This document shows, piece by piece, positions 17,977 to 39,407 of a DNA stretch of 39,427 nucleotides (positions are counted from its first letter, which is position 1; each line of letters starts with the position of its first letter). A program made the position numbers and the translations under genes. This DNA is from Opitutia bacterium (GTDB lineage Bacteria > Verrucomicrobiota > Verrucomicrobiia > Opitutales > Opitutaceae). Below the pieces are notes generated by a model. It did no database searches and had not been told where the DNA came from. It saw nothing but the letters and a program-made list of their open reading frames with translations. The stretch covers positions 1-39,427 of the forward strand of contig CANJCM010000041.1 of NCBI GenBank assembly GCA_947472765.1, given 5' to 3'.

Positions 17977-18052
17977 GTGGCCCGCTGCGTGCGCAGCGGG
18001 ATGGCTTAGGGCCGATCGATGAAAAGGTCCCTGTCCTCACGGACAGGGCCAC
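17977..18052. repeat. 76-bp two-hairpin REP-like element, copy A (in a 406-bp gene-free stretch)
   Basis: GTGG at 17977 is followed by stem CCCGCTGC, loop GTGC, stem GCAGCGGG (17981-18000). The second hairpin has stem CCCTGTCC, loop TCAC, stem GGACAGGG (18029-18048), then CCAC. The total is 76 bp. The rest of 17856-18261 holds no gene; it contains a small 8-bp hairpin at 18121-18140 and otherwise unremarkable sequence. Confidence 0.85.
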
Positions 18053-18261
18053 CTCTAATCACTACGCCAAGGCTGCTGTTTTGGAATCAGGCCCACTCTG
18101 GGATCATGCTGAATCCTGTCCTGGGTTCGCCAGAACCCAGCCCACTACTCTGCGACCTCCGTTAACCTCTGCGCCCTCTGCGTTCCCACTCAGGGGCTTC
18201 GGCAGGCAAATGCCACGGCCCGGAAGCAATCCGCAGACTTCGCAGCGGGACGCAGATGGAA

Positions 18262-19587
18262 TCAGGCCAGACGGGAGACGACCAGCGACGCGTTCGTGCC
18301 GCCGAAGCCGAAGCTGTTCGCCAACGCGGCCCGCACCGGTTTCCGCACCGCGACGTTCGGCGTGAAGTTGAGGCCCAGGGCCGCGCAGTCCGGATCCGTG
18401 TTCTCCAGATTGATCGTGGGCGGCACCACGCCGTCGTGGATTGCGAGCACCGCCGCCAAGGTGCCCATCGCGCCGGCGCCACCGAGCAGGTGGCCGGTCA
18501 TCGACTTCACGCCGCTCACATGGAGCGAGGCCTTGTTATCCGCGAACACACTGGCAATCGCCGCCGCTTCCTCGCCATCGCCGCCGGGTGTCGAGGTGGC
18601 GTGCGCCGAAACATAATCCACCTCCGCCGGGGCGAGCCCGGCCCGATCCAGGGCCATGCGCATGGCCCGGGCGGAACCCTCGGCACCGGGGGCGAGCGAA
18701 GAAAGATGATAGGCGTCGGCGGACGCGCCGTAACCGCGCAACTCGGCATAGATGCGCGCCCCGCGCCGCTGCGCGTGCTCGAGTTCCTCCAGCACGAAAA
18801 CCACCGATCCCTCCGAGAGCACGAAGCCGTCGCGATCCTGGTCGTAAGGCCGCGACGCTTTTTCCGGCGCGTCGTTGCGCGTCGACAGTGCCCGCATCTG
18901 GGCAAACGCACCCACCGCCAGCGGCGTGATCGTCGATTCCGCGCCGCCCGAGATCATGACGTCCGCGTCGCCGCGGATAATCGTCGCCGCCGCCTCGCCG
19001 ATCGCGTGACCGCTGGTGGCGCAGGCCGACGCGACGCTCATGTTGGATCCGCGGAGGTCGAGCAGCAGGCTCACCTGGCCCGCGAGCAGGTTGGGCGCGA
19101 TCTGGATGATGAAGAACGGCGAGATCTTGCGGAAGCCGCCCGTCTGCCAGGTCGTGTGCATCGCCTCCATCTCGGGCAGGCCGCCGAGACCGACGCCAAG
19201 ATTCACGCCGAGTCGCTCCGGCGGCAGCGTTGCCCGGTGCGCATCGAGTCCGGAATCCGCATACGCCTCGACCGCGGCGGCCACGCCGAGGTGGGTGAAG
19301 CGACCAAATTTCTTCAGGTCTTTCGGCGTCATCGCCTGCGTCATCGCTTCCTGCCCCGGTCCGCGCGGATGCAACGGCGCCGGCAGCAGCCGGGCCGGAT
19401 CGAAGTCACGAACCTCACCCGCAATCTGCGCCGTGCACAGCGCCGCATCGAAACGCGTAATGCGGCCGATGCCGCTGCGGCCGGCGATCAGCGACGCCCA
19501 CGTGGCGGCGGCGGAGTTGCCACAGGGAGTGACGGCGCCGACACCAGTGATGACCACGCGGCGGGAAGGAAGGGACGTTGAAGCCAT
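18262..19587 (-). CDS. fabF: Beta-ketoacyl-ACP synthase II (FabF-like)
   Basis: The 441-residue protein has the full condensing-enzyme signature: nucleophile Cys189 in VASACATSGHAIGEA, His329 in SAHATSTPGGDGEE, Lys361 and His366 in KSMTGHLLGGAGAMG, and the terminal NSFGFGGTNASLV. It condenses malonyl-ACP with an acyl-ACP in fatty-acid chain elongation (cytoplasm). It is slightly longer than typical FabF (about 412), mainly through an insertion around residues 65-90 (LPAPLHPRGPGQE). The active-site loop reads SAHATSTPGGD where FabF proteins usually have AHGTSTP.ND. No acpP lies upstream, so it may be a second, specialised copy in the genome. The downstream neighbour on the same strand is a TetR gene, separated by a REP-type element. 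Start is ATG at 19587. Confidence 0.92.
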   Translation of the reverse strand: MASTSLPSRRVVITGVGAVTPCGNSAAATWASLIAGRSGIGRITRFDAALCTAQIAGEVRDFDPARLLPAPLHPRGPGQEAMTQAMTPKDLKKFGRFTHLGVAAAVEAYADSGLDAHRATLPPERLGVNLGVGLGGLPEMEAMHTTWQTGGFRKISPFFIIQIAPNLLAGQVSLLLDLRGSNMSVASACATSGHAIGEAAATIIRGDADVMISGGAESTITPLAVGAFAQMRALSTRNDAPEKASRPYDQDRDGFVLSEGSVVFVLEELEHAQRRGARIYAELRGYGASADAYHLSSLAPGAEGSARAMRMALDRAGLAPAEVDYVSAHATSTPGGDGEEAAAIASVFADNKASLHVSGVKSMTGHLLGGAGAMGTLAAVLAIHDGVVPPTINLENTDPDCAALGLNFTPNVAVRKPVRAALANSFGFGGTNASLVVSRLA

Positions 19588-19658
19588 GGAAGGAGTGATT
19601 GGGACGGATTAAAGCCGGCGTCCAAGCGCGAAATGCCGGTCGGCGGGCCAACCCCGGT

Positions 19659-19810
19659 ACATCACGCAATACCTGGATTCCGAAGTTGATTGGCTCGGCG
19701 TGGCCCTGTCCGTGAGGACAGGGACTTCGTGATCGCTTCGCCTAAAGCCGTCCCGCTGCTCACGCAGCGGGCTACGAAGCCAACGTCGGAATCCAGGCAA
19801 TACGTGATGT
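19659..19810. repeat. 152-bp element with 30-bp terminal inverted repeats around REP copy B
   Basis: The core 19700-19775 is the 76-bp two-hairpin element (GTGG, CCCTGTCC-GTGA-GGACAGGG, then CCCGCTGC-TCAC-GCAGCGGG, CTAC). Outside it, 19659-19688 (starting ACATCACGCAATAC) and the reverse complement of 19781-19810 (starting ACATCACGTATTGC) match at 26 of 30 positions. The whole unit is therefore a MITE-like palindrome between fabF and the TetR gene. Confidence 0.85.
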
Positions 19811-19827
19811 GCAAGGGTGCGTGAGAG

Positions 19828-20469
19828 TCAAAATGCCCGCATGAAGTCATGGGCTGGGCGGGGGGCTGCGGACGAGGCCGTCGACTCCGGGGCGAATTCC
19901 GCGCGGAGCTTGCGCCGCATGGCGTGAAGGAGGGCATCGCTTTCCGCAGGCGCCTCGATCGCACGGGCGAGGAGCAGCGCCCCGACCAGGGAACTGAGCA
20001 AAAGGGCAACGCGCTCGCGGTTCTCCCTCGGATCGGACCGAAGCCGGAGGGCCGCGGCCAACCGATCCAGGTGCCCGGAGAACTCCCGGGCATAACGCGA
20101 TCGCAGCCCGCCCTCCACCCGTGCCATGTCGGCGCCGACGGCCACGACAAAACACCCGGTCCCCCGGTTGTCCCGATGCCGCGGAGCCAGGTAACTATCG
20201 ATCAACAGCCGGGCCCGCGCCGCCGCGGTCGGGCCCGCCGCGATGCGTTCGAGATTCGGAATCGCGGCCGCGAACGCCGCCGCGCTGGCCTCGGCGACGA
20301 GCTGGGCCTTGTCCTCAAAGTACGCATAGAAGCCGCCGTGCGTCAGACCGGCCGCCCGCATGACCTCGTCCACGCCAGTCTCAGCCACCCCGCGCTCCCG
20401 GAACACCCGCCCCGCCGCCGCGAGGATCCGATGCCGAATGGCCTGCTTGTGGCTGGGCGGGTAGCGCAT
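19828..20469 (-). CDS. TetR/AcrR-family transcriptional regulator
   Basis: The 213-residue protein has an N-terminal DNA-binding helix-turn-helix at about residues 10-56 (RILAAAGRVFRERGVAETGV, DEVMRAAGLTHGGFYAYFED), typical of TetR repressors. The remainder is the variable helical ligand-binding and dimerisation domain. The HGGFYAYFEDK motif places it near the LmrA/YxaF-like group that controls efflux or detoxification genes. ATG 20469 is chosen because it immediately precedes the conserved HTH; an upstream in-frame GTG-type start would run through repeat copy C. Likely targets are its own gene and the divergent HIT gene or the fabF gene downstream, but no operator was identified. Confidence 0.9.
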   Translation of the reverse strand: MRYPPSHKQAIRHRILAAAGRVFRERGVAETGVDEVMRAAGLTHGGFYAYFEDKAQLVAEASAAAFAAAIPNLERIAAGPTAAARARLLIDSYLAPRHRDNRGTGCFVVAVGADMARVEGGLRSRYAREFSGHLDRLAAALRLRSDPRENRERVALLLSSLVGALLLARAIEAPAESDALLHAMRRKLRAEFAPESTASSAAPRPAHDFMRAF

Positions 20470-20505
20470 TGGATGATAGTTGTTTACGTTATGCTTCCGA
20501 ACTTC

Positions 20506-20586
20506 GTGGCGCAGTCCGCTGGGTGAGCAGCGTGACGACGTTGGGCGAGGCGCTTGGGCAGTCCCTCCCCTCACGGACAGGGCCAC
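20506..20586. repeat. Degenerate two-hairpin REP-like element, copy C
   Basis: GTGG at 20506 begins a copy of the 76-bp element with a 5-base insertion in the first hairpin (GCAGT) and mismatches in the second stem (CCCTCCCC against GGACAGGG), ending in CCAC at 20586. It lies in the 276-bp divergent region between the TetR gene and the HIT gene. Nothing else recognisable is present there. Confidence 0.65.
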
Positions 20587-20745
20587 CGCAGCCCTCTCAA
20601 TTTCGGATTTCGGCCATTACATGACGACCGTCATTCCAAAATGCAAGCCCGTCCTCGGCCGGAACCCGGTTTTGACATTCCCGGGGGCGGCCTTTTTGCT
20701 CCGCCCTCTTTTTCTCCCGCGCCAGCCTCCCCTTCCACCGCCCTC

Positions 20746-21270
20746 ATGCAGCAGCTTCACGCCCACTGGCGCATGGAATACATCGAGGCGCCGCGCTATC
20801 CGGCCAACATGCGGCGACCGTTCACGGAACTGCCGGCCTTGGGCGATGACCGAGCCGCCCTGATTGTTCATCGCTCGAAGCTCTCGTACCTGCTGCTGAA
20901 TCGTTTCCCCTACAATCCCGGCCACCTGCTCGCCGTGCCCTTCCGCGAAGTCACGAACCTCGAGGAACTCACCGCCGCGGAACGCGCCGATCTCTTCGAC
21001 GAAATCATCGTCGGCCAGGACTTGCTGACCCGCGCGCTGAAGCCGGAGGGGTTCAACATCGGCTTCAACCTCGGTGGCAACGTCGCCGGCGGCAGCATTT
21101 CCCATCTCCACGGCCACATCGTCCCGCGCTGGAACGGCGACAACAACTTCATGCCCGTGCTCGGTCAGACCCGCGTGCTGCCGCAGTCGCTCACCGCCAC
21201 GTGGGAAAAGCTGCACGCCGCCGCCCAAGCCGCCCCGAAGAAGCGCCGCCCGGCCCGCCGTCGCCGGTAG
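20746..21270 (+). CDS. HIT-family nucleotide hydrolase/phosphorylase
   Basis: The 174-residue protein carries the histidine triad HLHGHIVPRW (H120, H122, H124 from the chosen start). It hydrolyses or transfers the alpha-phosphate bond of nucleotides such as Ap4A or AMP-lysine-type substrates in the cytosol. Preceding family features include SKLSYLLLNRFPYNPGHLL and GFNIGFNLGG. The C-terminus ends in a short Arg/Lys-rich tail (PKKRRPARRRR). ATG 20746 is preferred; ATG 20641 in the same frame would add a Pro-rich extension not expected in the family. It lies 25 bp upstream of the PhoH gene and is probably co-transcribed. Confidence 0.9.
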   Translation: MQQLHAHWRMEYIEAPRYPANMRRPFTELPALGDDRAALIVHRSKLSYLLLNRFPYNPGHLLAVPFREVTNLEELTAAERADLFDEIIVGQDLLTRALKPEGFNIGFNLGGNVAGGSISHLHGHIVPRWNGDNNFMPVLGQTRVLPQSLTATWEKLHAAAQAAPKKRRPARRRR

Positions 21271-21295
21271 TCGCCGACGCTCGCCCGCCCCTGCC

Positions 21296-22279: not shown

Positions 22280-22294
22280 CCGGACCCGACAATC

Positions 22295-24697: not shown

Positions 24698-24702
24698 TGC
24701 TT

Positions 24703-24730
24703 CCGGCGAGGGAGGCGGGCTCCTCGCCGG
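24703..24730 (+). other. Hairpin after pgpH
   Basis: The stem CCGGCGAGG (24703-24711) pairs perfectly with CCTCGCCGG (24722-24730) around a 10-base loop, 5 bases after the pgpH stop. There is no T-run, so it is a weak terminator or an mRNA-stabilising structure. Confidence 0.5.
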
Positions 24731-24731
24731 T

Positions 24732-24761
24732 GGATTCTTCGCTACGCTCAGAATGACAGGG
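24732..24761. repeat. Dispersed palindromic repeat (GAATGACA...GAAGAATC type)
   Basis: On the minus strand this reads CCTGTCATTCTGAGCG then TAGCGAAGAATCC. I recall near-identical sequence as a high-copy dispersed repeat in several unrelated bacterial phyla. Only one copy is in this window, so the repeat nature here is from memory, not shown. Confidence 0.4.
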
Positions 24762-24791
24762 CATTTATTCAGTCGGTCACGTTTCCAATCA

Positions 24792-26315: not shown

Positions 26316-26381
26316 GGGAGGGGAATGGCGATTGCCGAATGCCGATTGGCTCGTTCGAAGGCTGACCAACGAAGCCGGGTT

Positions 26382-26594
26382 GAGCCTGAAGCCAGGAACC
26401 CAGGAATCAGACCCAATTCTGAATCACTCGATAGTATTAAGGACTTGAACCGGAAGGCCGGGGAGATCGGGACGCCCGCTCCCTCCTTCTCGATCTCCTG
26501 TTTCAACCCGGCCTCCCACTCGGTGCACTCAGGCACTCTGTGGTAAAGCTCAGTACTCCGAACGTCCGATTCCTGGCTTCATGGCTTCAGGCTC
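26382..26594. repeat. 213-bp element with 30-bp terminal inverted repeats
   Basis: The left end 26382-26411 begins GAGCCTGAAGCCAGGAAC. The reverse complement of 26565-26594 begins GAGCCTGAAGCCATGAAG. The two arms share GAGCCTGAAGCCA, an internal CCAGGAATC and the final GA. No open reading frame of note lies inside. It fills most of the 339-bp gap between the Ig-like gene and the DUF502 gene; the remainder shows nothing else. Confidence 0.75.
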
Positions 26595-26654
26595 CATCCT
26601 GAAAGGCTAATTTTGCCGTGCGTTCATTTCGGGCGCCTTTAGCTTCGCCGGGAC

Positions 26655-27987: not shown

Positions 27988-28078
27988 ACGGCGCGGGCGG
28001 AAAAATTTGCGCCGCGGCCACACCGCGCTTGTTTCCCCGGTCACCTCGCTCCTGAATTTCGAAATCGACGGTGCTGGC

Positions 28079-28154
28079 GTGGCCCTGCCCGTGAAGGCAG
28101 GGACTTCGAGAACGCTACGCATTATGTCGTCCCGCTGCTCACGCAGCGGGCTAC
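28079..28154. repeat. 76-bp two-hairpin REP-like element, copy D, with outer inverted repeats
   Basis: GTGG at 28079 is followed by CCCTGCCC, GTGA, AGGCAGGG (one mismatch). The second hairpin is CCCGCTGC, TCAC, GCAGCGGG (28131-28150), then CTAC: 76 bp exactly. The flanks (left TGAATTTCGAAATCGAC, right reverse complement TGGATTCCGAAGTCGAC) match at 14 of 17, the same outer arms as copy B. It fills most of the 210-bp gap before the helicase gene. Confidence 0.85.
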
Positions 28155-28197
28155 GAGGTCGACTTCGGAATCCAAGTCGGATGTCACTTTCCGCCGC

Positions 28198-31100
28198 ATG
28201 CAGTTTGATCTGGAGCGCCGCACCGCGGCCCTGAGCGTTGGCGAATTCGCCGACTTCTCGCTCGGCCCGCGCGACGCCGTCGGCGGACCGCAGGGGCTGT
28301 GGCGCGCCCAGCTCGGCACGCACTGGCACAACGAACTCCAGAGCCGCGCCACCGCCGACCACGGTCCGGACGCCACCTTCGAGCTGCCGATCACCGGCCG
28401 CGTGGTGCACCGCGGCTGGACCCTCACGCTGACGGGACGGATCGATCAAATCATCCGCCGCGGCCCCGCGGTCACGCTGCGCGAAATCAAGACCGTCACC
28501 CGCGCACTCCCCGCGGACGAAACGGAACTGCGCCGCGACTACCCCGGCTACCTCGCCCAGCTCGCCACCTACGCCGCGCTCACCCGCCTCGGCCTCACCC
28601 AACCCTCACGTCACGTAATACGTGACGAGTCGCCGCCCGCACCGGGTAGCCCGCGGCGTGAGCTGCGGGACGAAATCGGAACGAGTAACGTACCGGTCCC
28701 TGCCCCCACGGGCAGGGCCACTTCCACCCCGCCCGCCAAGTTTGCACGTAACGTAATACGTGACGAACCCGCCGCGGCGCCGCCGGAGATTCTCCGTGCG
28801 GAACTGGTCTTCGTGGAGGTCGACTCCGGGCTCGCGCAGACGGTGACGCTGACGTCGGCGGACGATTTTTATTTTCGCACGCAGCTCGAGCGGGTCGCCG
28901 AGTTTCTCGATCTTCGACTGCGTGCGCGCGAGCGACTCCGGAACCTGCGTTATCGGCCCGCCTTCGCCGTTCCGCGTCCCGGTCAGGAAATGACGCAGGT
29001 GGAACTCACCGCCCTGTTCCAGCAGCATCCGCTCGTGCTGTTCGAGGCACCGACCGGCTTCGGCAAGACGGGCGTCCTGCTCGAGTTCGCGCTCGGTCAG
29101 CTCCGCTCGGGTCACTTCGACCGCGTGCTGTACCTCACGAGCAAGTCGACCGGGCAGCTTCAGGTGGTGCGCACCTTGTCGGCCATGACGGTGGCGGCGG
29201 TCGAGCCAGCGCAAGATCTGACGTCGAAGGTCAAAGGCTCGGAGATACCGAACCCGGTTCCACCCAAATTCAGCGTGACGCCGGCGCCGCCGGTCGCCGC
29301 CCCCGCGGTCACCGCCTGGCAGGTGCGGGCGAAGACCGAGCATTGCGTCAACACCACCTTTCACTGCGTGCGTGATTCGTGCTCGTATCTGGACGGCGCC
29401 GCGGAACGGTGGCCGCAGAGCGGACTGGCGCGCTTCTACCTCGACGAGCGGCAGGCACGCGACGTCGAGACGCTGCGCGCCGCCGGCCGCCACGCGAAGA
29501 TTTGCCCGTACGAAATCACGCGGGCCGCCCTCGCGTTCAACGACGTGTGGATCGGCGACTACAACTACGTCTTCGCCCCACGGAATCGCGGCCTGTTCTT
29601 CGAGCAGCCCGGCTTTGCGGCCGCGCGCACGCTGCTGCTCGTCGACGAGGCGCACAATCTGCCCTCGCGAGTGGCGGACGCGTATTCCCACGCAATTACC
29701 TACGAGGAAACGCTGGCCACGCGCTCCGAGCTGAATCGGATTCGTCCGCCCGCCGCCCTGGTGACGGCCTGGGATCATTGGTGTCATGGTCTGCAACACC
29801 TGCACCGCTGCGACGCATTGTCCGCGGCGGAAGAGGATGATCTTCGCCACCTGCTCGAGACCCTGGCGAAACTCATTCCCACCCTGTCGCTGGATCTCGC
29901 GGCGCTCGGGCCCGACGTGGCGGACACGCTGTGGAAGATTCCCTCGCTCTGGGAGGACCTCTCCTCGACCGAGCTGCCGCGGCTCTGGTGGTGTCCGCGC
30001 GATGGCGAACTCGCGCTCACGTGTCTCGATGCCGCCAGCGCGATTGGCGCCACGCTCCGCGAGTTCGGGGGCGTCGTCCTCGCGAGTGCGACGCTCACGC
30101 CGGTGGATGGATTCACCGCGACATGCGGACTCGACGATTCGACCGCGCGTTCGCCGCAGACGGTGTTGCCCGAGGTTCGCTCGATCGGCGAGCTGCCGCT
30201 CCCTGCCAACAGCGACCGGACGCCAGCCGTCGATCCGACCGCCAAACTCGGCACGCTGAACAAGCGCGAGACGAAGAAGCTACTGCGCCAGTTGACGAGT
30301 GCCGCGGAACTCCTGCGCGTCGAGGAAGTGCGAGCCGCGGCGCAGCCGGCGCTACTTCGGGCCCATACGCCCTGGCGCGATGGCGCCTATGTGATCGGCA
30401 TCGACACCCGCGTCGACACGACCTTCCAGCACCGGTCGCACCATTACACGACGACCGCCGCCACCATCGCCGCCCTCCACGCCGCCGCCCAATCGGCGAG
30501 CGCGCAACATTCAACTCTCAACTCTCAACCCTCAACTCTCAACCAACTCAGCGCTCAACCCTCAGCTCTCAACCCGCCCAACTCTCAGCTCTCAACTCTC
30601 AACCCGCCCACCCCTCAACCCTCAACTCTCAACCAGTCTCCCCCCTCAGCTCTCAACTCGAGCTCGGGCACAAGCCCGAGCTCGATCGCCATCTTCTTCC
30701 CCAGCTATGCCTACGCCGAGGCGATTGCGCGGGAACTCGCCTCCATCGCGCCCTCGGTCCCGGTTTCACTGCAGCCCAAGCTCCGCGATCTCGCCGCACA
30801 GGCGACGTGGGTGGAGAACTCGCTGCGCCAGGGCGGGGCGATGTTCCTCGTCCTGGGTTCCAGTTTTGCCGAGAGCATCGATCTGTTGGGCGGCCGGGTC
30901 TCGCATGCGATGGTCGTCGGGCCGGCGCTGCCCGAGGTGAACGCGGTGCAACGCGCGCGCCTGGCGGAGGCGACGCGCCAGGGTCTCGGGCGCGAAGCGG
31001 CGTTTCGCCGGGTTTATCAGGCTCCCGGGATGACCAAGGTGAATCAGGCGCTCGGCCGCCTTGTCCGCAGTCCCGGGCAACGCGCCCGCGTGTTGCTGCA

Positions 31101-31209
31101 TTGCCGGCGGTTCCTCGATTCGAGTTACGCGGAGCTGCTGGCGTCGGAATATCGCGGCGGGACACCGATTGCGACCGACGAGGCGCTTGAAAGCTGGCTC
31201 CGCGGGTAA
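28198..31209 (+). CDS. XPD/DinG-type iron-sulfur helicase with N-terminal PD-(D/E)XK nuclease-like domain
   Basis: The 1003-residue protein has two parts. The N-terminus (about 1-125) has the PD-(D/E)XK pattern: TGRIDQI (Asp about 83), LREIKTVTR (Glu/Lys about 97-99) and YLAQLATYAAL, as in Cas4/RecB-type nucleases. From about 265 on comes a superfamily 2 helicase. It has Walker A FEAPTGFGKTG (282-292), four cysteines at 383, 390, 395 and 436 placed like the Fe-S cluster of XPD/DinG, DEAH at 483-486, and a second RecA-like domain with IAIFFPSYAYAEAIA and a terminal QALGRLVRSPGQRARV (motif VI-like). It probably unwinds and perhaps cuts DNA in repair. Two low-complexity in-frame insertions interrupt it: a REP-type element at 28607-28766 and a simple repeat at 30508-30684. 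Both fall in likely linker positions, so the gene may still be functional. Confidence 0.9.
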   Translation: MQFDLERRTAALSVGEFADFSLGPRDAVGGPQGLWRAQLGTHWHNELQSRATADHGPDATFELPITGRVVHRGWTLTLTGRIDQIIRRGPAVTLREIKTVTRALPADETELRRDYPGYLAQLATYAALTRLGLTQPSRHVIRDESPPAPGSPRRELRDEIGTSNVPVPAPTGRATSTPPAKFARNVIRDEPAAAPPEILRAELVFVEVDSGLAQTVTLTSADDFYFRTQLERVAEFLDLRLRARERLRNLRYRPAFAVPRPGQEMTQVELTALFQQHPLVLFEAPTGFGKTGVLLEFALGQLRSGHFDRVLYLTSKSTGQLQVVRTLSAMTVAAVEPAQDLTSKVKGSEIPNPVPPKFSVTPAPPVAAPAVTAWQVRAKTEHCVNTTFHCVRDSCSYLDGAAERWPQSGLARFYLDERQARDVETLRAAGRHAKICPYEITRAALAFNDVWIGDYNYVFAPRNRGLFFEQPGFAAARTLLLVDEAHNLPSRVADAYSHAITYEETLATRSELNRIRPPAALVTAWDHWCHGLQHLHRCDALSAAEEDDLRHLLETLAKLIPTLSLDLAALGPDVADTLWKIPSLWEDLSSTELPRLWWCPRDGELALTCLDAASAIGATLREFGGVVLASATLTPVDGFTATCGLDDSTARSPQTVLPEVRSIGELPLPANSDRTPAVDPTAKLGTLNKRETKKLLRQLTSAAELLRVEEVRAAAQPALLRAHTPWRDGAYVIGIDTRVDTTFQHRSHHYTTTAATIAALHAAAQSASAQHSTLNSQPSTLNQLSAQPSALNPPNSQLSTLNPPTPQPSTLNQSPPSALNSSSGTSPSSIAIFFPSYAYAEAIARELASIAPSVPVSLQPKLRDLAAQATWVENSLRQGGAMFLVLGSSFAESIDLLGGRVSHAMVVGPALPEVNAVQRARLAEATRQGLGREAAFRRVYQAPGMTKVNQALGRLVRSPGQRARVLLHCRRFLDSSYAELLASEYRGGTPIATDEALESWLRG
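28607..28766. repeat. REP-like element copy E inserted in frame in the helicase gene
   Basis: The 76-bp core 28646-28721 has GTAG, stem CCCGCGGC, loop GTGA, stem GCTGCGGG (one G-U pair). The second hairpin is CCCTGCCC, CCAC, GGGCAGGG, then CCAC. It is flanked by direct 22-bp repeats (28607-28628 and 28745-28766, 21 of 22 identical), each containing the palindrome CACGTAATACGTG or a one-base variant. The period is 138 bp, which is 46 codons, so the frame is kept. Confidence 0.85.
30508..30684. repeat. CTCAACTCTCAACC-type simple repeat plus 11-bp hairpin inside the helicase gene
   Basis: From 30508 to 30658 the DNA is a degenerate repeat of CTCAACTCT / CTCAACC units, encoding a Ser/Thr/Leu/Asn/Gln/Pro linker (STLNSQPSTLN pattern). 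It is followed at 30659-30684 by a perfect hairpin: stem CGAGCTCGGGC, loop ACAA, complementary stem. The whole is in frame between the two helicase halves. Confidence 0.9.
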
Positions 31210-31224: not shown

Positions 31225-31294
31225 TGGAGGGCGGGTGCCTCACCCCCGGAACGGTTCACTTTCTGCACGTGGCCGGTGGGGCACCGGCCCTCCA
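31225..31294. repeat. Paired hairpins of a second dispersed type (TGGAGGGC...)
   Basis: TGGAGGGCGGGTG, CCT, CACCC (31225-31245) is followed by an inverted partner: stem GGCCGGTG, loop GGG, stem CACCGGCC, then CTCCA (31271-31294). The arms face each other as in the 76-bp elements but have different sequences. It lies after the helicase stop and before the CAP-domain gene. Confidence 0.65.
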
Positions 31295-31383
31295 TGGGAC
31301 GCACTTCGGATCGCTACCAAGTGGTTCGCGAGTTTCGGGTCTCTTCACCTTGCGGAACCTCGTCCGACCCGTTTGCTCGTGTC

Positions 31384-34215
31384 GTGTTCAATCGTTCGCG
31401 GCTCGCCGGCCTTTTCCTGCTTCTCTCCGCGTCACTGACGGCGCAGCCCGTGGCTCCCACCGCGGAGCAGCTCACCCTCCTGCGCGCGGGCGAACTCCAG
31501 GAGCCGCCGCGCGCCGCGGCCTCCACCCCGTTCACCGTCGAGACGACCTCCCGGGAGGCGGTCCGGCAGTTCTACCGCACAATCTATCCTTCGTCGGCCA
31601 ATGTGCCGATGGGCTGGACCGGCAGTTACGCGGTCAATGGCGCCGGTGACACCTCGTCAGCCTACAAGGAGGCCGTGCTCCGCCGGATTAATTTCTACCG
31701 CGCCCTGGCCGGCGTGCCCGCGACGCTCACGCTCCGCTCCGACTACAGCGCCAAGGATCAGCAGGCGGCGTTGATGATGAGCGCCAACAACGACCTGAAC
31801 CACTTCCCGCCCACCTCGTGGACTTATTACACCGCGGACGGCGCCGATGCGGCCAAGAACTCCAACATCGCCATCGGCTACGCCGGAGCCGACGCGATTA
31901 CCGGTTACATGACGGATCACGGCAGCGGCAACGCCGCCGTGGGACACCGGCGCTGGCTGCTCTATCCGCAGACCAAGGAAACCGGCACGGGCGACGTTCC
32001 CGGCAACGGTTCCTCCCTGCCTCCGGCCAACGCCACCTGGACGATCACCCCGGACTTCGGCACGACGCGTCCCGCCACCCGCACCACGGCCGTCGCCTAT
32101 CCGCCGGCCGGCTACGTGCCGCACACACTCGTCTGGCCGCGCTGGTCGTTCTCCTACCCCGGCGCAAATTTCTCGGGCGCCACCGTGACCATGACCCGCA
32201 ACGGCCAGTCCATTTCCGCGGTGGTCGAACCGGTCGTCGCCAACCTGGGCGAACCGACGCTCGTCTGGGTGTACGACGGCAAGGATTCCGATTCCACCGA
32301 CTCGCACGGCCGGCCGTCAAGTGACACGGTCTACCGCGTGACCATCGCCAACGTGGGCGGCTTGTCCGGTGGCAATCAGACCTTCAGCTACGATGTCACG
32401 GTGTTCGACCCTGATGTCGCTGGCCCTGATTTTTCCGCGGTCGCGGTTTCCGGTTCGGCCGCCCCCGCCGTCGGCGCCGCCACCACCTACACCGTCGCCA
32501 AGCCCACGTTCGCCAGCCGGTTCGACTGGCGAACCCTGCCGCTGACTGCGTTTGCGAAGACCTACGACGCGGAGGCTGGGTTGGATGGCATCGCCGCCAC
32601 GACGAACAGCGATTACAGCGTGGTGCAATCGACGGTAGCGGGGGCGAGCGGCGGTTCCTCGTCGTATCATTTGGCGCACACGAGTCGCACCGACCAAATT
32701 CTCCTACTGCCCGAGACCTTTCTCGTCAGTGATACGAGCGCCGCCGTCACCTTCCGGAGTCGTCTGGGCTGGGCGAGCGACATCCAGACCGGACAAGTCG
32801 AGGTCTCGACGGATGACGGAGTCACGTGGTTCGAGGTCTATTCCCAGGCCGGCACGAACAACGCCGGCGAGTCCAGCTTCACGTCCCGCAGCACCTCGCT
32901 GGCGTCGTTTGTGAACCGCACCGTGCGGGTTCGCTTTCTTTATGCGGTGGACGCATCGGGATCGGCCTATCCGCAGTCGACGAGCGGCGTCGGCTGGTAC
33001 CTCGACAACATCACGCTGACCGGCGTGCAGAAGGCCACGCCCGGTTCGGCGACGGCGGGGACCAGCACTTCCACTTCCTTTGCCTACATCCCTGGATCTC
33101 CGGGAAGGGTCGGGCTGCAGGCGCGGGGCGTCCTCTTCGACAGCTATTCGATGGAATGGGGGCCGGTCGCGGTCGTGACCGCGGCGAATGCGGTGACGGT
33201 CACCACGCAGCCTTCAAGCCTGGCCTCCGGCGTCGCCGGCACGGCGAGCTTCACGGCCGCGGCCAGCGGCACGGCAACGTATCAGTGGCAGTACAACGGG
33301 GCCGCGCTCGCCGGCGCGACGAATGGGACGCTCGCGCTGACCAATGTGCAGCCGGCCAGCACCGGCATCTATCTCGCGCAGGTCACGAGCAGCGGGACCA
33401 CGGTCTCGAGCCGCGGCGCGATCCTGGGCCTGACCTCGGCGTCGAAGCTGGTCGGAACGGGCACGGAGTTTCCGAACATTTTTCACGCGGGCACGGGTTT
33501 CACTTACGATCAGATTCTCCTCGGTGGCACGGCGGCGTCGGTCACGGCCGATACCGGACAAATCCTCCGGATGTCGTACATCGATCTCAACGACGACGTC
33601 GTGCAGGTGGAGTTCTCCGGTGCCGGCACGCTGAGCCTGGTCCTGGATGCGGTGTCCGGTCCCGCGATTCCGCTCAAATACAACCAGGCCACCACCTACA
33701 TGAAGGGCCACGCCGGGATCGTCCTGACCGGCGCGGACGAAAGCACGAATCTCTCCGTCTTCAGTGTCGGCCGGGCGAATGCGGCGAACCAGGCGCTGTT
33801 TCGCAGCGACGTCACGTATGACGGCTTCGCCGACATCGCGTTCATCGCGATTACAAGCACCGACGGAAAGTTCGGCGGTCTGCGCACGGCGAACGCGAGC
33901 TACTTTGCCACGAAGGGCTACACCGGCGTCTACGCTCCGAACGTGGAGTTTACGGGCCCTGTGTTCGTCGGCGACATCCGCGCCGAAAACGACGCCACCC
34001 CCGTGCTCATGATTGGCTCAGGCCCGGACACGCGGATCACCGGCGGCGATCTCCTCCAGACCAATGGACGCGCCGTCCAGGTCAGCGGGCTGACCCAGTT
34101 GAATTTCAGGGCCGGCAGCAATTCCCACGGCACCCTGTTTCCCGCCCAGACCAATCGGGCGCGACTGGAACAGAACGGCACCGACGTCACGACGTCGACG
34201 GTGGTCAGTCCGTAG
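31384..34215 (+). CDS. Secreted CAP/SCP-domain protein with Ig-like domain
   Basis: GTG 31384 gives 943 residues with an immediate signal peptide (RLAGLFLLLSASLTAQ, about 6-21). An upstream in-frame GTG at 31276 lies within the hairpin repeat and is less likely. A CAP (SCP/YkwD) domain spans about 90-215: FYRALAGVPATLTL, NNDLNHFPPTSWTYYT (His about 140) and GHRRWLLYP (about 187-195), with the two His positions typical of the fold. A beta-rich middle follows (about 330-590; VRVRFLYAVDASG, GVGWYLDNITLTG), reminiscent of MAM/jelly-roll modules. An Ig-like domain lies at about 607-680 (TYQWQYNGAALAGATNGTLA). A C-terminal region of unknown type ends without a visible sorting signal. It is probably an extracellular protein; no enzyme activity can be assigned. 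Confidence 0.88.
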   Translation: MFNRSRLAGLFLLLSASLTAQPVAPTAEQLTLLRAGELQEPPRAAASTPFTVETTSREAVRQFYRTIYPSSANVPMGWTGSYAVNGAGDTSSAYKEAVLRRINFYRALAGVPATLTLRSDYSAKDQQAALMMSANNDLNHFPPTSWTYYTADGADAAKNSNIAIGYAGADAITGYMTDHGSGNAAVGHRRWLLYPQTKETGTGDVPGNGSSLPPANATWTITPDFGTTRPATRTTAVAYPPAGYVPHTLVWPRWSFSYPGANFSGATVTMTRNGQSISAVVEPVVANLGEPTLVWVYDGKDSDSTDSHGRPSSDTVYRVTIANVGGLSGGNQTFSYDVTVFDPDVAGPDFSAVAVSGSAAPAVGAATTYTVAKPTFASRFDWRTLPLTAFAKTYDAEAGLDGIAATTNSDYSVVQSTVAGASGGSSSYHLAHTSRTDQILLLPETFLVSDTSAAVTFRSRLGWASDIQTGQVEVSTDDGVTWFEVYSQAGTNNAGESSFTSRSTSLASFVNRTVRVRFLYAVDASGSAYPQSTSGVGWYLDNITLTGVQKATPGSATAGTSTSTSFAYIPGSPGRVGLQARGVLFDSYSMEWGPVAVVTAANAVTVTTQPSSLASGVAGTASFTAAASGTATYQWQYNGAALAGATNGTLALTNVQPASTGIYLAQVTSSGTTVSSRGAILGLTSASKLVGTGTEFPNIFHAGTGFTYDQILLGGTAASVTADTGQILRMSYIDLNDDVVQVEFSGAGTLSLVLDAVSGPAIPLKYNQATTYMKGHAGIVLTGADESTNLSVFSVGRANAANQALFRSDVTYDGFADIAFIAITSTDGKFGGLRTANASYFATKGYTGVYAPNVEFTGPVFVGDIRAENDATPVLMIGSGPDTRITGGDLLQTNGRAVQVSGLTQLNFRAGSNSHGTLFPAQTNRARLEQNGTDVTTSTVVSP

Positions 34216-34252
34216 AGCGGATTAGATCGAAGTGTAACCGGTAAGGCTGGGA

Positions 34253-34315
34253 GGGCGCGCACGAGGCGCGCCCCTACACGATCTTCCTTCGTAGGGGCGT
34301 GCCTCGTGCACGCCC
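34253..34315. repeat. Outward-facing hairpin pair of a third type (GTAGGGGCGTGC...)
   Basis: The first hairpin has stem GGGCGCGC, loop ACGAG, stem GCGCGCCC, then CTAC (34253-34277). After 13 bases the second has GTAG, stem GGGCGTGC, loop CTCGT, stem GCACGCCC (34291-34315). Both units read GTAG plus an 8-bp stem with CTCGT loop, on opposite strands. The pair lies between two convergent genes, where it could also stop transcription from both sides. Confidence 0.75.
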
Positions 34316-34330
34316 GTTTCTTCGCTCCAG

Positions 34331-34936: not shown

Positions 34937-34945
34937 CGGTGGTCC

Positions 34946-35590: not shown

Positions 35591-35601
35591 CGCGGAATCA
35601 A

Positions 35602-35873
35602 GTGAACCACTAATTGAAACTAATCGGTCACTAATCCGAGCAACCTGAACCCAACCGAGCCTGGTGAGACTCGTCTATCAGCCTGACATCACGTTTCGAA
35701 TCCCTGCCCTCACGGGCAGGGCCACGTTTCAGTCGTGGCCCGCTGCGTGAGCAGCGGGAGGATTGGCCTGCCAATAAGCCTCAGCCCGTTGGGCGAACCT
35801 CAATCGTTCGCCGGGAGGCGCGGGAGGGTGGCTCGAACCATCAGCGTCCAATTAGCGCCAATTAGTGGTTCAC
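35602..35873. repeat. 272-bp MITE-like element with 26-bp terminal inverted repeats, containing REP copy F
   Basis: The left end 35602-35627 begins GTGAACCACTAATTGAAACT. The reverse complement of 35848-35873 begins GTGAACCACTAATTGGCGCT. They match at 22 of 26. Inside, at 35702-35758, lie two hairpins of the 76-bp family in opposite order: CCCTGCCC-TCAC-GGGCAGGG, CCAC, then GTGG, CCCGCTGC-GTGA-GCAGCGGG. There is no open reading frame of note inside. It occupies nearly all of the divergent space between the PepSY and ceramidase-like genes. Confidence 0.85.
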
Positions 35874-35909
35874 ACTCAGCCGCACTGGAGGAAGGTTAAC
35901 GGTATCCCC

Positions 35910-37349
35910 ATGAAACTTTCCGTCTTCTTCCCCACCGGTCTGGTTGCGTTGTTTCTCGCCTGCTCCGTTCGCGCCGCCGCCCCGGCGGCCCCATTGGCCG
36001 ACTGGAAGGCCGGCGTCGCCGTCGTTGACATCACGCCGGAGTTGCCGATGTGGATGGCCGGCTACGGTGCGCGCACGCGGCCCGGCGATCAGGTGGCCCA
36101 GCGCCTTCACGCCAAGGGGCTCGCCCTCGAGGACGCCCGCGGCCGCGTCGCCGTTCTCGTCACGACCGACACGCTCGGAATTCCCCGGCTCGTCCGCGCC
36201 AACGTCGAGCAGCGCGTCGCCGCGCAGTTCAAGCTGCCTGCGTCCCATCTGCTCATCAACGCCTCGCACACGCACACCGGACCGGAAATTCGCGTCATTG
36301 ATACGAGCTTCGGCCGGCAGGATCAGGCCCGGCTCGAGCGCGTCGTGAAGTACCGGCAGGAGTTGGAGGACAAACTCGTGCAGGTCGTGGGCGAGGCGTT
36401 GGCGCATCGGGCTCCCGCCGCGCTGGCCTTCGGGCAGGCTCAGGCCGGCTTTGCGATGAACCGCCGGGAAAATTACTCGCTGCCGAAAGGCGACCTCCGC
36501 AGCGGCAAGGTTCCGAATCCCGACGGGCCCGTCGATCACGATGTGCCGGTGCTGCAGGTGACCGACGCCGCGGGCAAACTGGTCGCGGTGCTTTTTGGCT
36601 ATGCGTGTCACAACACCACGCTCGACGGCTACGCGTTCACCGGTGACTACGCCGGCTTCGCGCAGGCGCACCTCGAAGCCGCGCATCCCGGCGCAGTGGC
36701 GCTGTTCATGTCAGGCTGCAGCGGTGACCAGAACCCACACCCGCGCCGTGACATGATTCCCGGCGTCAAGCCGCTCGAACTGGCCAGCCAGCACGGCCGC
36801 ACTCTCGCGATTGCAGTCGAAGCCGCTCTGCAGTCGTTTCCCCGGCCGCTCGCGTCACAGCTCGAGTCCGTCCTCGAGGATGTCGCTCTCGATTACCAGC
36901 CCGTGCCGACCCGCGAGGAACTTCAGCAGCAACTCAAGTCTTCGGACCGAACCACGCGGGAGAACGCCCAGGTGAATCTCGAGAAACTGGACCGCGAGGG
37001 CCGCCTGCCGACGCAGTACCCGTATCCTGTGCAATTGCTGCGGGTCGGGCCGCTGACGCTCGTCGCGCTGGCGAGCGAAGTGGTCGTCGATTATTCGCTG
37101 CGCCTGAAACGCGAGATCCCCGGACCGCTCTGGGTGTCCGCCTACAACAACGATTTCATGGGCTACATGCCGAGCCATCGCGTGTGGCTCGAAGGTGGTT
37201 ACGAGGGCGGCGGATCGCTCGTGTTCACTTCGTCCTCGATGTACCGCGGCGCCGTGCACCCGAACATTTGGGCGCCCACCCTGGAGGAGCGCATCATCGC
37301 CAAGGTGCACGAACTCAACGGTCGGCTGCCCCGTCCGGCCGCGCCCTAA
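35910..37349 (+). CDS. Secreted neutral/alkaline ceramidase-like hydrolase
   Basis: The 479-residue protein starts at ATG 35910, preceded by GGAGGAAGG about 14 bases upstream. It has a signal peptide (FFPTGLVALFLACSVRAAA). It resembles the N-terminal catalytic domain of neutral non-lysosomal ceramidases: KAGVAVVDITPELPMWMAGY (about 28-47), zinc-type NASHTHTGPE (H120, H122), GYACHNTTLDG (about 229-239), and FMSGCSGDQNPHP where the nucleophile serine region lies. The C-terminal immunoglobulin-like domain of full ceramidases is absent, as in many bacterial proteins of this type. The substrate could be ceramide or another amide; family members in Planctomycetes and Verrucomicrobiota are mostly uncharacterised. 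The location is probably periplasmic or secreted. Confidence 0.88.
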   Translation: MKLSVFFPTGLVALFLACSVRAAAPAAPLADWKAGVAVVDITPELPMWMAGYGARTRPGDQVAQRLHAKGLALEDARGRVAVLVTTDTLGIPRLVRANVEQRVAAQFKLPASHLLINASHTHTGPEIRVIDTSFGRQDQARLERVVKYRQELEDKLVQVVGEALAHRAPAALAFGQAQAGFAMNRRENYSLPKGDLRSGKVPNPDGPVDHDVPVLQVTDAAGKLVAVLFGYACHNTTLDGYAFTGDYAGFAQAHLEAAHPGAVALFMSGCSGDQNPHPRRDMIPGVKPLELASQHGRTLAIAVEAALQSFPRPLASQLESVLEDVALDYQPVPTREELQQQLKSSDRTTRENAQVNLEKLDREGRLPTQYPYPVQLLRVGPLTLVALASEVVVDYSLRLKREIPGPLWVSAYNNDFMGYMPSHRVWLEGGYEGGGSLVFTSSSMYRGAVHPNIWAPTLEERIIAKVHELNGRLPRPAAP

Positions 37350-37493
37350 GCCGCGCGGTGCGGTTTTTCCGGGATTTCCCGCGCCGCGGGAGGATTCACA
37401 GCAATTTCAACCTCGCGGCCCGAGGTATGAATAAACTTCCGCCATCCCGGTGTGACCTCCGGGCCCTTGGCGCGTCTTACCTCCGCACGAGTG

Positions 37494-37628
37494 ATGAAGA
37501 GCTTCCTGAAAATTGTCGTCCTCGCTCCGATCTTCACGTTCGTCGTGAGGGTGGTGATTCTCTGCGGCGTCGTTTTCGACCTGTGCTCGACGAACGAATC
37601 GGCCACGGACGATCAGAACGGCCGCTGA
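37494..37628 (+). CDS. Possible small membrane peptide
   Basis: A 44-residue frame starting at ATG 37494 (or GTG 37491) encodes MKSFLKIVVLAPIFTFVV, a further hydrophobic stretch RVVILCGVVFDLC, and a polar tail STNESATDDQNGR. This is a short single-TM or signal-anchor peptide. Codon quality is acceptable, and it overlaps the end of the opposite-strand gene by 16 bases. The 144-bp gap after the ceramidase-like gene has no other gene. No homologue is recognised; it could be chance. An 86-codon minus-strand frame covers the same DNA but looks less protein-like. Confidence 0.35.
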   Translation: MKSFLKIVVLAPIFTFVVRVVILCGVVFDLCSTNESATDDQNGR

Positions 37629-38008
37629 AACGACTTGGGATCCTCGCCGGCGCGCAGGGAGATCGCCGCCCCTTCCTGCCCGAGTTCGAGGCACTCGAAA
37701 AGATTCCGGATGCACTGGCCCAGACGATCGTGGCCCGCCTGCTCCCGCTCGATTTGATCGACGAGTTTCCGGCCCAGGATGGCGGCCTCGGCCTGCACCC
37801 GCGTCGCAATCCTGACCGGTGGGTTGTCATCGGAATCGAGGTACGGCGAGAGCAGCGCCTCAAGCCGCGAGGCGGTGTCCGTGAGGGAATCGGCGCCACC
37901 CACCGGCCGGGAGCCGGTTTCCGGCATCAGGTGCAGGATCCGCCGGGCCACGCGCCCGGCGTGGGGCAGATTCAAGGCGACGCGAAAATACGGCAGGTCG
38001 TCAGGCAT
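37613..38008 (-). CDS. Hypothetical protein, small
   Basis: ATG 38008 gives 131 residues, 22 bp after the esterase stop on the same strand. The composition is that of a normal soluble protein: MPDDLPYFRVALNLPHAGRV, then LHLMPETGSRP, TASRLEALLSPYLDSDD, and a mostly helical C-terminal half (VQAEAAILGRKLVDQIERE, LGQCIRNLFECLELG). There is no signal peptide or TM helix. The open frame continues upstream inside the esterase gene, but that part is a shadow with high Arg/Thr/Ser content. I do not recognise a family. Co-transcription with the esterase is likely. Confidence 0.6.
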   Translation of the reverse strand: MPDDLPYFRVALNLPHAGRVARRILHLMPETGSRPVGGADSLTDTASRLEALLSPYLDSDDNPPVRIATRVQAEAAILGRKLVDQIEREQAGHDRLGQCIRNLFECLELGQEGAAISLRAGEDPKSFQRPF

Positions 38009-38030
38009 GGCAGCGAGGGCGGGTGCAATG

Positions 38031-39104
38031 TCACAGCCGCGGCAGCAGATCCGCGAGGTATCGGCGCCAGTTGTACCAGTTGTGGGCGCCCGTCGTCGCC
38101 TTCCACTCGTGCTTGATGCCGAGCTGGTCGAGCGTCGCATGCGAGGCCTTGAAGCCCTCCCAGTTGTGGTCGAGTTCCCCGCACGCGAAGTAGAAGAGCC
38201 GCATGCCCGCGTTGAATTTCGCCGCGTCCTGCAGCAGCGGGTAATCCGCCGCAAAGCCGTCCCGCAGCCGCGTGCTGAACGGCGCCATCACGGAAAAGAG
38301 ATCGGGCCGGCGAAAGCCGACGTGGAGGGTCTGCGAGCCCCCATTGGAAAGTCCGGCGAGCCAGCGATCCTCACGGGTACCGGAAATCCGGTAGCGTTGC
38401 TCAATCCGCGGCATGACCTCGTCCGTGAGGTGCTGCTGAAAGGTGTCGAGCCACTTCATCCGCGCCTCCTCGGTGTACGGCTGCGCCCGCGGAAACTCCG
38501 CATGCGGCATCACGATGATCATTTCCTTCATCTGGCTGCGACCGATCAAATTATCCGCCATCACGTCGGCATACCCTGCGACGGTCCAGTTCGACGGGTC
38601 GCCGGAGCCGCCGTGGAGCAAGTACAGCACGGGATACTTTCGATCTGAAGTTCCGTAGGTCGGCGGAGTGTAGACGTAACACTTCACGCCCTGCCCGAGC
38701 GCCTTGGAGTAGATCGTTTCAATATGCAGGACGCCGTGCGGCGCCCTTTCATCGACATCCTCGGGAAACGGTGCCGGGCCGCGGACTTCGAGAGTGCTGA
38801 CGAGCGTCCCACGCCGGCGCGGCGGATTGGCTGGGTCGGAGACGACGAGGCCATCGACGCTGAAGCGGTAGGAATAGAAGCCGTGCTCGAGTACGTCCGT
38901 GCGATAGGTCCACGTGCCATCGCTGCCGCGCTGCATCGGAACGCCGGCGCGATCGGCGATGAAATCGGCGAGCAGCAGCACGCGCTGGGCGTGCGGCGCC
39001 ACGAGGGTGACCGTCGCGGTACGATCGGCCGCCACCACGGGCGCGGCCGCCCGCGCCAACATACTGACGGCCACGAACACGAGGAGAAGACGAAGGGTAT
39101 TCAT
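38031..39104 (-). CDS. Secreted esterase of the Fes/esterase-D type with N-terminal early-set domain
   Basis: The 357-residue protein starts at ATG 39104 (a GTG at 39131 would add 9), with signal peptide LRLLLVFVAVSMLARAAA. An E-set/CBM48-like beta-sandwich follows at about 30-110 (VTLVAPHAQRVLLLADF, WTYRTDVLEHGFYSYRF). An alpha/beta-hydrolase then has YPVLYLLHGGSGDPSNW (about 157-173), the nucleophile elbow GLSNGG (Ser about 253), Asp about 312 (GELDHNW) and His about 341 (GAHNWYNWRRYL). Such enzymes cleave feruloyl or acetyl groups from plant polysaccharides, or siderophore esters. Verrucomicrobiota often carry several. No carbohydrate operon is visible nearby, so the substrate is open. Confidence 0.92.
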   Translation of the reverse strand: MNTLRLLLVFVAVSMLARAAAPVVAADRTATVTLVAPHAQRVLLLADFIADRAGVPMQRGSDGTWTYRTDVLEHGFYSYRFSVDGLVVSDPANPPRRRGTLVSTLEVRGPAPFPEDVDERAPHGVLHIETIYSKALGQGVKCYVYTPPTYGTSDRKYPVLYLLHGGSGDPSNWTVAGYADVMADNLIGRSQMKEMIIVMPHAEFPRAQPYTEEARMKWLDTFQQHLTDEVMPRIEQRYRISGTREDRWLAGLSNGGSQTLHVGFRRPDLFSVMAPFSTRLRDGFAADYPLLQDAAKFNAGMRLFYFACGELDHNWEGFKASHATLDQLGIKHEWKATTGAHNWYNWRRYLADLLPRL

Positions 39105-39331
39105 GCGAAGGACGGGGTTGATGCGCCGCACTCAGAGTGCCGCGGGGCCACGTTCGCTCTCTCCACGTCTGAATCCAACGCGAATTTCTGTTACGGGACG
39201 CAGTCGGTCCATCTTCCGCCCTCCCCGAGCCCCACACCCCGCCCTTCGGGCACCCCTCTCAAGCCGGAACGATGCAGTAGAAAACCGCGAAGAGCGCGAA
39301 GAGACGCGAAGGTTTAAAATCGTTGGCCTTT

Positions 39332-39407
39332 GTAGCCCGCTGCGTGAGCAGCGGGACGACGTGAGGCGAAGCGTTGGAGAAGTCCCTGCCCTCACGGGCA
39401 GGGCTAC
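39332..39407. repeat. 76-bp two-hairpin REP-like element, copy G
   Basis: GTAG at 39332 is followed by CCCGCTGC, GTGA, GCAGCGGG (39336-39355). The second hairpin is CCCTGCCC, TCAC, GGGCAGGG (39384-39403), then CTAC: 76 bp and the least mutated copy in the window. The remainder of 39105-39427 shows no gene, only a short GCGAAGAG-type repeat near 39290-39312. Confidence 0.9.

Follow-up and report, generated by a model that had tools for sequence, protein, structure and literature searches.

GTGA-loop hairpin dimers of an Opitutaceae genome as probable heterodimeric REPINs with a cognate RAYT, many of them carried in a 128-bp element with inverted ends

Contig CANJCM010000041.1 of an Opitutia bacterium (Opitutaceae, Verrucomicrobiota; assembly GCA_947472765.1) carries several copies of a 76-bp repeat composed of two short hairpins, and our analysis indicates that these hairpins are very probably repetitive extragenic palindromic (REP) sequences arranged as heterodimeric REPINs (REP doublets forming hairpins) and served by a cognate REP-associated tyrosine transposase (RAYT, also TnpA-REP, of the HUH/Y1 type). 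Because a RAYT of the matching subfamily is flanked by the same hairpins elsewhere in the genome, and RAYT clades track stem type across genera, we assign the repeats to a REP/REPIN-RAYT system of a known kind. The system belongs to a bacterium of the Opitutus group, and its unusual part is a 128-bp carrier element that encloses many of the dimers, together with conservation that is confined to the hairpins. The window, by which we mean the whole 39,427-nt stretch analysed, is the entire contig (C41) of a 4.97-Mb draft genome (157 contigs, 95.9% complete).

The five dimers that the preliminary description placed in the window are present at the positions it gave, and each measures exactly 76 bp. 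All five join a Q unit and a P unit in inverted orientation with the tags outside; the common form of the Q unit is GTRG-CCCGCTGC-GTGA-GCAGCGGG-A, the P unit is GTRG-CCCTGYCC-GTGA-GGRCAGGG-A, and the labels P and Q are based on stem positions 4-5. The accompanying picture of a tag, an 8-bp stem and a GTGA loop fits most of the ten units and not all of them: stems are perfect in eight, with a single mismatch in one unit each at 28079 and 28646, and the loop is GTGA in eight, the deviants being GTGC (unit 17977) and GTGG (unit 28698-28721). A search for a tag, a perfect 8-bp stem and a 4-nt loop returned 10 units in the window and none in 50 order-1 Markov copies of it, and DNA folding of the five 76-mers gave two separate hairpins in each case (z-scores -4.1 to -5.0). 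Two more arrangements, a decayed sixth dimer and a pair in the opposite order, had been missed earlier. The hairpin pairs of the window are as follows.

17977-18052, + strand: 76-bp heterodimer; Q unit 17977-18000 (+, stem CCCGCTGC, loop GTGC), P unit 18029-18052 (-, stem CCCTGTCC, loop GTGA)
19700-19775, within a 128-bp element on the - strand: 76-bp dimer, P on +, Q on -
20511-20586, + strand: decayed sixth dimer of 76 bp, GCAG and GTGG tags, stems mismatched
28079-28154, within a 128-bp element on the - strand: 76-bp dimer, P on + with one stem mismatch, Q on -
28646-28721, + strand: intragenic 76-bp dimer inside the frame 28198-31209, with neither inverted end
35702-35758: 57-bp pair in opposite order, tags inward; P unit 35702-35725 (-), Q unit 35735-35758 (+)
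39332-39407, + strand: 76-bp heterodimer close to the contig end, both tags GTAG; Q on +, P on -

The last copy ends 20 bp from the contig end, and the dimer and its compared flanks match the end of contig C32 (47194 on), so that the two may be the same physical copy; the match of 39332-39427 to the C32 end is what an assembly break at a repeat or an overlap of neighbouring contigs would leave. Inverted arms of 34 bp (GTGAACCACTAATTG...) at 35602-35873 enclose the tag-inward pair and form a further nested palindrome.

The same units recur throughout the genome, as the preliminary description had proposed to check: the pattern GTRGCCCNNNNCGTGNGNNNNGGGA has 440 exact matches and none in a reversed control, and a looser pattern that admits any GNNA loop has 455 matches and two in the control. 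A detailed census covering 1.54 Mb of the 4.97 Mb, in which a unit had to show a tag close to GTRG, a CCC..GGG frame and 6 or more pairs, gave 171 units, of which 160 carry a GTAG or GTGG tag, 139 have 8/8 Watson-Crick pairs and 159 have a GTGA loop. In this census, tag-outside dimers are exactly 76 bp long in 48/61 cases and tag-inward pairs 57 bp in 9/13, and a P unit is joined with a Q unit in 72 of the 74 inverted dimers. By the calls of a simple home-made gene finder, 67 of these 74 dimers are intergenic, 5 lie inside frames and 2 partly so, as against 608 of 5000 random 76-mers that were intergenic. The units thus have a GTAG or GTGG tag directly 5' of a short hairpin, a high copy number and a mostly extragenic location, and with the flanked RAYT gene described below these traits support the original identification as REPs in bacterial interspersed mosaic elements (BIMEs). 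Chance inverted repeats or an assembly artefact might be suspected in a draft of 157 contigs with one copy at a contig end common to another contig; the 440 matches against none, and the occurrence of the same architecture elsewhere in the family, rule this out, and we regard it as next to impossible.

A RAYT gene flanked by the same hairpins, which the preliminary description had named as a check, is present on contig C9. Seven Y1 genes recognised by Pfam PF01797 were rejected as cognate, none of these hairpins occurring in the stretches read around them; the gene on C141 starts within 0.5 kb of the contig start, and that on C34 within 0.2 kb of the contig end. An eighth Y1 gene, G000:C9:74863-75264, was recovered with the NF047646 profile (E=1.5e-9) and has the hairpins both upstream and downstream. 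Its frame is without stops, with the HUH motif MPDHFH and Tyr128, and H69, H71 and Y128 are invariant in the subfamily alignments, so that the HUH motif and the catalytic tyrosine of such enzymes are both present. It is the sole match of its subfamily in its own genome. Against NF047646 the protein scores E=1.8e-10 and 40.9 bits, below the curated cut-off of 80, which is an NCBI naming threshold and not a biochemical criterion; five other proteins of the subfamily that were tested score 45.8-53.4 bits. Searched against PDB as a single sequence, the C9 protein has one match up to E=10, the weak one to 4er8 (E=0.078), and the subfamily profile likewise has 4er8, 'TnpArep', as its only match up to E=10 (E=1.1e-6). 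An AlphaFold model of the relative L095 (mean predicted local distance difference test score 84.6) has 4er8 as its best fold match (E=1.1e-6), and IS200/IS605 transposases rank next.

Other hairpin families accompany the rejected genes. GTAG-GGGCGCGC-CTCGT hairpins occur near the PF01797 genes on C34 and C49, and GTGG-CACGGGTC hairpins near those on C37 and C34. In the window, 34213-34325 holds copies of the former family, of the type GTAG-GGGCGCGC-CTCGT-GCGCGCCC, and receives 29 of the 362 BLAST pieces obtained in comparing the window with other contigs; members of this family also occur at about 1 kb or less from two other RAYT genes (L038, L039). The latter, a third family of the type GTGG-CACGGGTC-TCCC/TCCT-GACCCGTG, surrounds the C37 RAYT gene (L044:1559-3640) and is found on C34 as well.

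The association between this RAYT subfamily and tagged hairpins extends beyond the genome. A scan of named genomes gave 30 subfamily loci, the closest in Opitutae and other Verrucomicrobiota drafts and the weak ones in other phyla; within the family, the subfamily occurs in 28/150 genomes and 17/49 genera, and the GTGN-loop hairpin pattern in 21/150 genomes and 12/49 genera. When the flanks of 30 of the 37 subfamily matches in the family were surveyed to 350 bp, GTRG hairpins stood on both sides of 14/30 loci, compared with 0/600 shuffled flank pairs. Stems at the RAYT loci vary by lineage, CCCGCTGC, CCCCGAGC, CCAAACTC, CCGCGTTC, CGGAACGC and CGACGTTC being among them, and the loops are mostly GNNA or GNA (GTGA, GGGA, GAGA, GTTA, GTAA, GCCA, GGA, GAA), with GTGC, GGAT and AGGAG as exceptions and some distant relatives bearing quite different hairpins. 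Such loops presumably resemble the unusually stable GNA/GNNA loops of DNA hairpins, a likeness that we hold as a lead only, a literature search having given no usable result. At L075:1896-1972, three RAYT frames (L075, L076, L077) run into the downstream hairpin, which there encodes a PALTxRAT-like tail.

RAYT clades track stem type across genera. In a tree of 38 subfamily rows, drawn from 16/30 named-genome loci and 22/30 family loci plus an outgroup (L113 with a broken frame, L131 identical to L101, the frameshifted L108, other doubles and distant hits were left out), RAYTs with CCC-foot hairpins cluster (95/82) with one member inside that has no hairpins, and RAYTs with CGGA-foot hairpins cluster (99/93) with two other stems inside. 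The stems covary: over the 69 distinct units among the matches listed, the four search-free positions hold a mean of 3.32 of 4 pairs, where shuffling gave a mean of 1.52 and a maximum of 1.94 in 2000 trials. The same-genus genome G139 has 104 units, with mostly GAGA or GGGA loops among those listed, and its RAYT is flanked by GAGA hairpins. These loops of G139, together with the restriction of GTGN loops to 21/150 genomes, support the earlier suggestion of a lineage-limited REP system with a characteristic loop.

Dimers in relatives conform to the same plan. Twenty regions, chosen partly for a listed spacing near 76 bp, yielded 19 dimers in eight other genomes (one region gave none, and L251 and L252 are the same copy). 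Among the ten of these dimers that measure 76 bp, pairwise identity is 95% for the units and 35% for the 22-nt spacers, where 27% is expected at random; the spacers of L235 and L239 are related, at 68% identity. We also surveyed neighbouring units at the listed places in 12 relatives (for G067, G079, G112 and G146 just the places with a near neighbour), and among the matches listed, tag-outside dimers measure 76 bp in 12/29 cases and 74-76 bp in 19/29. Identical stems were found in 1/46 inverted neighbours and in 12/16 direct neighbours among these listed matches (p=1e-8); with one stem difference allowed, 7/46 inverted neighbours are alike.

Comparison of the flanks of the 76-bp dimers showed that conservation extends beyond the dimer to inverted ends, ACYTGGATTCCGAAGTT, with a total length of 128 bp. 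The preliminary description had treated the repeat as a unit of constant 76 bp; that length stands, but the copies at 19700 and 28079 continue on both sides into the longer element, which in the window has the following parts.

19656-19667: left half of the interrupted target palindrome, GGTACATCACGC
19668-19670: left 3-bp direct repeat AAT, apparent target duplication
19671-19798, - strand: full-length 128-bp element; end ACCTGGATTCCGAAGTT at 19671-19687, dimer 19700-19775, second inverted end to 19798
19799-19801: right 3-bp direct repeat AAT, apparent target duplication
19802-19813: right half of the interrupted target palindrome, ACGTGATGTGCA
28050-28177, - strand: 128-bp element whose ends have decayed further; right end visible at 28161-28177, left limit deduced from the 128-bp spacing

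Allowing up to 1 mismatch, we counted 118 occurrences of the end motif across the genome, as against none in the control; an exact pattern for the Q-side end occurs 22 times here and is absent from the 149 other genomes of the family that were searched. Our survey of ends took in 57 tag-outside dimers of 73-79 bp (the copy at 39332, the contig-end double of C32, was left out), of which 31 have both inverted ends, 10 have one and 16 have neither. Outside the ends of the 31 complete elements, 3-bp direct repeats are exact in 12 and agree at up to 1 mismatch in 26, compared with means of 3.8 and 14.1 and maxima over 5000 trials of 10 and 22 when the right flanks were permuted; in five of the 31, two or all three bases disagree. 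The flanks farther out are complementary (at least 6 of 8) in 21/31 elements, where permutation gave a mean of 10.3 and a maximum of 18, and many elements sit at the centre of palindromes, for example TGTCATCT-NNN-AGATGACA; one, C10:18575, is flanked by halves of two different palindromes.

The intact palindrome TGTCATC-N5-GATGACA has 41 copies in the genome and none in the control, for instance at L157:14169 (C1:54169), and in places two or three stand about 53 bp apart. It occurs in 27/150 family genomes, and because these include some in which GTGN-loop hairpins are absent or nearly so (G123, G140, G139), the palindromes look like an older, separate repeat that the 128-bp element entered. 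The intragenic dimer at 28646, which has neither inverted end, lies in the frame 28198-31209, whose product appears helicase-like by eye, and is set between two palindromes.

28607-28627: palindrome left of the intragenic dimer, CACGTCACGTAATACGTGACG; its core CGTAATACGTGACG reappears 138 bp further on
28745-28765: second, slightly different copy of the palindrome, right of the dimer

In the closest orthologue, in G152 (70% protein identity), reading by eye shows that the dimer is absent and that one palindrome stands at the place of the window's two, the DNA alignment being gappy beyond the palindrome. Elsewhere in the same frame, at 30505-30634, CTCAACTCTCAACC-like repeats are read through (LNSQPSTLN...), a stretch that same-genus matches mostly skip.

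The carrier permits a comparison of the hairpins with the DNA immediately around them. From elements gathered by their ends alone (up to 6 mismatches in 28 end positions), with no condition on the hairpins, we obtained 49 copies, and relative to a carrier consensus built from 27 copies first found by their hairpins, in which old spacer subfamilies are not separated from decay, the hairpin units differ at 31/2352 sites (1.3%) and the spacer and links at 292/1960 (14.9%; p=4e-70). The spacer alone differs at 150/1078 sites, and the inverted ends, which served as the selection criterion, at 98/1372; at G/C sites alone the counts are 18/1715 for the hairpins and 112/1029 for spacer and links. The boundary of conservation is sharp at the tag and after GGGA. 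Within the hairpins, differences fall at 3/392 loop sites, 9/392 tag sites and 19/1568 stem sites, and of 17 altered stem pairs, 2 are compensated. Among the 12 copies that have diverged most, 148/480 interior sites and 15/576 hairpin sites have changed. Hairpin and interior differences show no significant correlation (rho 0.19, p 0.19). The preliminary description had held that structure rather than sequence is conserved, and this is true across genera, where stems covary; within the genome, where paired stem changes set apart a few stem types, the hairpin sequence itself is nearly invariant. Since turnover of whole elements alone would leave the spacer as uniform as the hairpins, strong purifying selection or replacement of the REPs alone seems to be at work.

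These observations suggest a sequence of events in which the RAYT would recognise three features of a unit folded in single-stranded DNA, its GTRG tag, its CCC/GGG foot and its small GNNA loop, and would cut and join beside the unit, spreading REPs or rewriting them in place. Two unlike units might be kept at a set spacing so that each folds alone, avoiding one long hairpin. In this species, one dimer would have been taken into a 128-bp element bounded by inverted ends and have multiplied with it to dozens of copies, many of which may have entered the centres of dispersed palindromes of older date, with apparent 3-bp duplications of the target; we think that a second transposase, distinct from the RAYT, brought this about.

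Several findings weigh against this reading. The proposal that the repeats are mobilised by a RAYT encoded elsewhere is borne out as regards the gene and its hairpins and not as regards movement, since no movement of the hairpins was observed and mobilisation by the RAYT is something we infer. Hairpins are not found on both sides of 16/30 subfamily loci, and co-occurrence in the family is imperfect, with a RAYT in 10/18 genomes that have at least 3 hairpin matches and in 18/132 others (Fisher p=1.8e-4). The Q-type hairpins next to the RAYT gene on C9 carry a different stem, CCCGCTCC, which a single compensated pair separates from the abundant CCCGCTGC; the CCCGCTCC units in 1.54 Mb are just the three beside the gene. 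The 128-bp form adds a difficulty of its own, as its inverted ends and apparent 3-bp duplications are foreign to the Y1 mode of transposition of IS200/IS605 elements. Finally, the conservation could arise without any RAYT activity if the hairpins had a cellular function that purifying selection maintains.

That the 128-bp form is a classical miniature inverted-repeat transposable element (MITE), whose 17-bp inverted ends are recognised by a DDE transposase so that the hairpins travel as passengers and the RAYT plays no part in its spread, seems to us about evenly balanced. Inverted ends together with a 3-bp duplication speak for a DDE-type enzyme, and the 128-bp form has both, with ends at constant spacing and without counterpart in the control, direct repeats above the permuted maxima whether exact or at up to 1 mismatch, and an exact Q-side end that none of the other family genomes searched contains. 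However, inverted ends are absent, by eye, from all 19 relatives' dimers, and with the end-less dimers of this genome, and those with a single end, this indicates that the dimer exists without a MITE; five of the 31 complete copies fit poorly with a duplication, and the uniformity of the hairpins alone is left unexplained. No insertion sequence with the carrier ends was present among 20 loci inspected around end matches that lacked a listed partner, a part of all end matches, and all 20 hold hairpin units. For the shorter dimers a MITE is compatible with the REPIN-RAYT explanation. A role of the hairpins in the cell (transcription end, RNA protection or nucleoid protein binding), kept up by purifying selection and with spread confined to the past, is a possibility that we find somewhat doubtful: it would account for the low divergence of the hairpins beside the spacer and links of the same 49 copies, even among the 12 most diverged, and for the mostly intergenic location, but the loop and tag are about as conserved as the stems and few changed pairs are compensated, which implies more constraint than a structure-only role needs. 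Moreover, dimers show no clear bias to convergent gene ends (19/67, against 141/565 gaps longer than 76 bp), and no Rfam family matches the window at the gathering score, for which reason an identity as an RNA family was also dropped. We consider it unlikely, though worth stating, that REPs are rewritten singly in place, the RAYT swapping or copying units whose ends lie exactly at the tag and foot while a different transposase spreads the carrier.

Viewed beside known systems, the REPIN-RAYT interpretation has close precedents. A set distance, conserved REPs and a weaker spacer have already been described for REPINs (Bertels and Rainey 2011, PMC3116915), and the present dimers have the inverted pair at a set distance and the less conserved spacer. 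In the strict sense, in which both REPs close into one long hairpin, they are not REPINs and work in a REPIN-like manner; unlike the REPINs of Pseudomonas fluorescens SBW25 (PMC3116915), their arms are unlike and each folds alone, and many copies are enclosed in a 128-bp element that has inverted ends and apparent 3-bp duplications. The nearest likeness, compared by description only, is to GTAG-17, -19 and -20 of Opitutus terrae (Di Nocera et al. 2013, PMC3733652), which share the verrucomicrobial host and the GTAG/GTGG tag. The same account includes GTGG-tagged O. terrae REPs, heterodimers, spacers alike in length and unlike in sequence, head-to-head (HH) and tail-to-tail (TT) dimers, intragenic copies and REPtrons; its GTAG-17 and GTAG-19 dimers have 1-2 bp between partners, whereas here about 28 bp separate two 24-nt units. 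As in E. coli TnpA-REP (4er8) and the REPtrons of PMC8266576, an HUH/Y1 enzyme stands beside its own hairpins, with tag and hairpin as determinants, and for TnpA-REPs with perfect palindromes loop positions are decisive (PMC8266576). The sequence similarity to the E. coli enzyme is remote and the subfamily different, and the stems here are perfect over 8 bp with GNNA loops. The carrier resembles bacterial MITEs (PMC6382973, PMC10969869) in its small size, inverted ends and apparent target duplications, and differs from them in holding a REP dimer, in its frequent position at the centre of other palindromes and in that no parent insertion sequence has been found so far. A limited literature search returned no account in which an element with inverted ends and 3-bp duplications encloses a REP dimer, and none of this group's REPs beyond PMC3733652.

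The window also holds repeats of other kinds. A 204-bp repeat occurs in many copies at 363-5704 and perhaps codes for a repeat-rich surface protein; inverted arms of 36 bp, 151 bp apart, mark a candidate small mobile element at 26377-26599; and the 100-base bins of two more dispersed repeats, at 39230-39283 and 31225-31300, receive 15 and 5 of the 362 BLAST pieces.

REPs and RAYTs are common small repeat systems of bacteria, and how the uniformity of the repeats is maintained is, to our knowledge, an unsettled matter. The contrast between unlike units in inverted pairs and like units in direct pairs bears on a preference that, in the words of Di Nocera et al., 'has no obvious explanation' (PMC3733652). 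If REPs were rewritten in place, hairpins would stay uniform while the spacer, links and inverted ends decay, and the REPs of a genome would be a converted, and not merely a copied, population. The 128-bp carrier, through its spacer and links, places a built-in clock beside each hairpin, and turnover, selection and conversion thereby become distinguishable.

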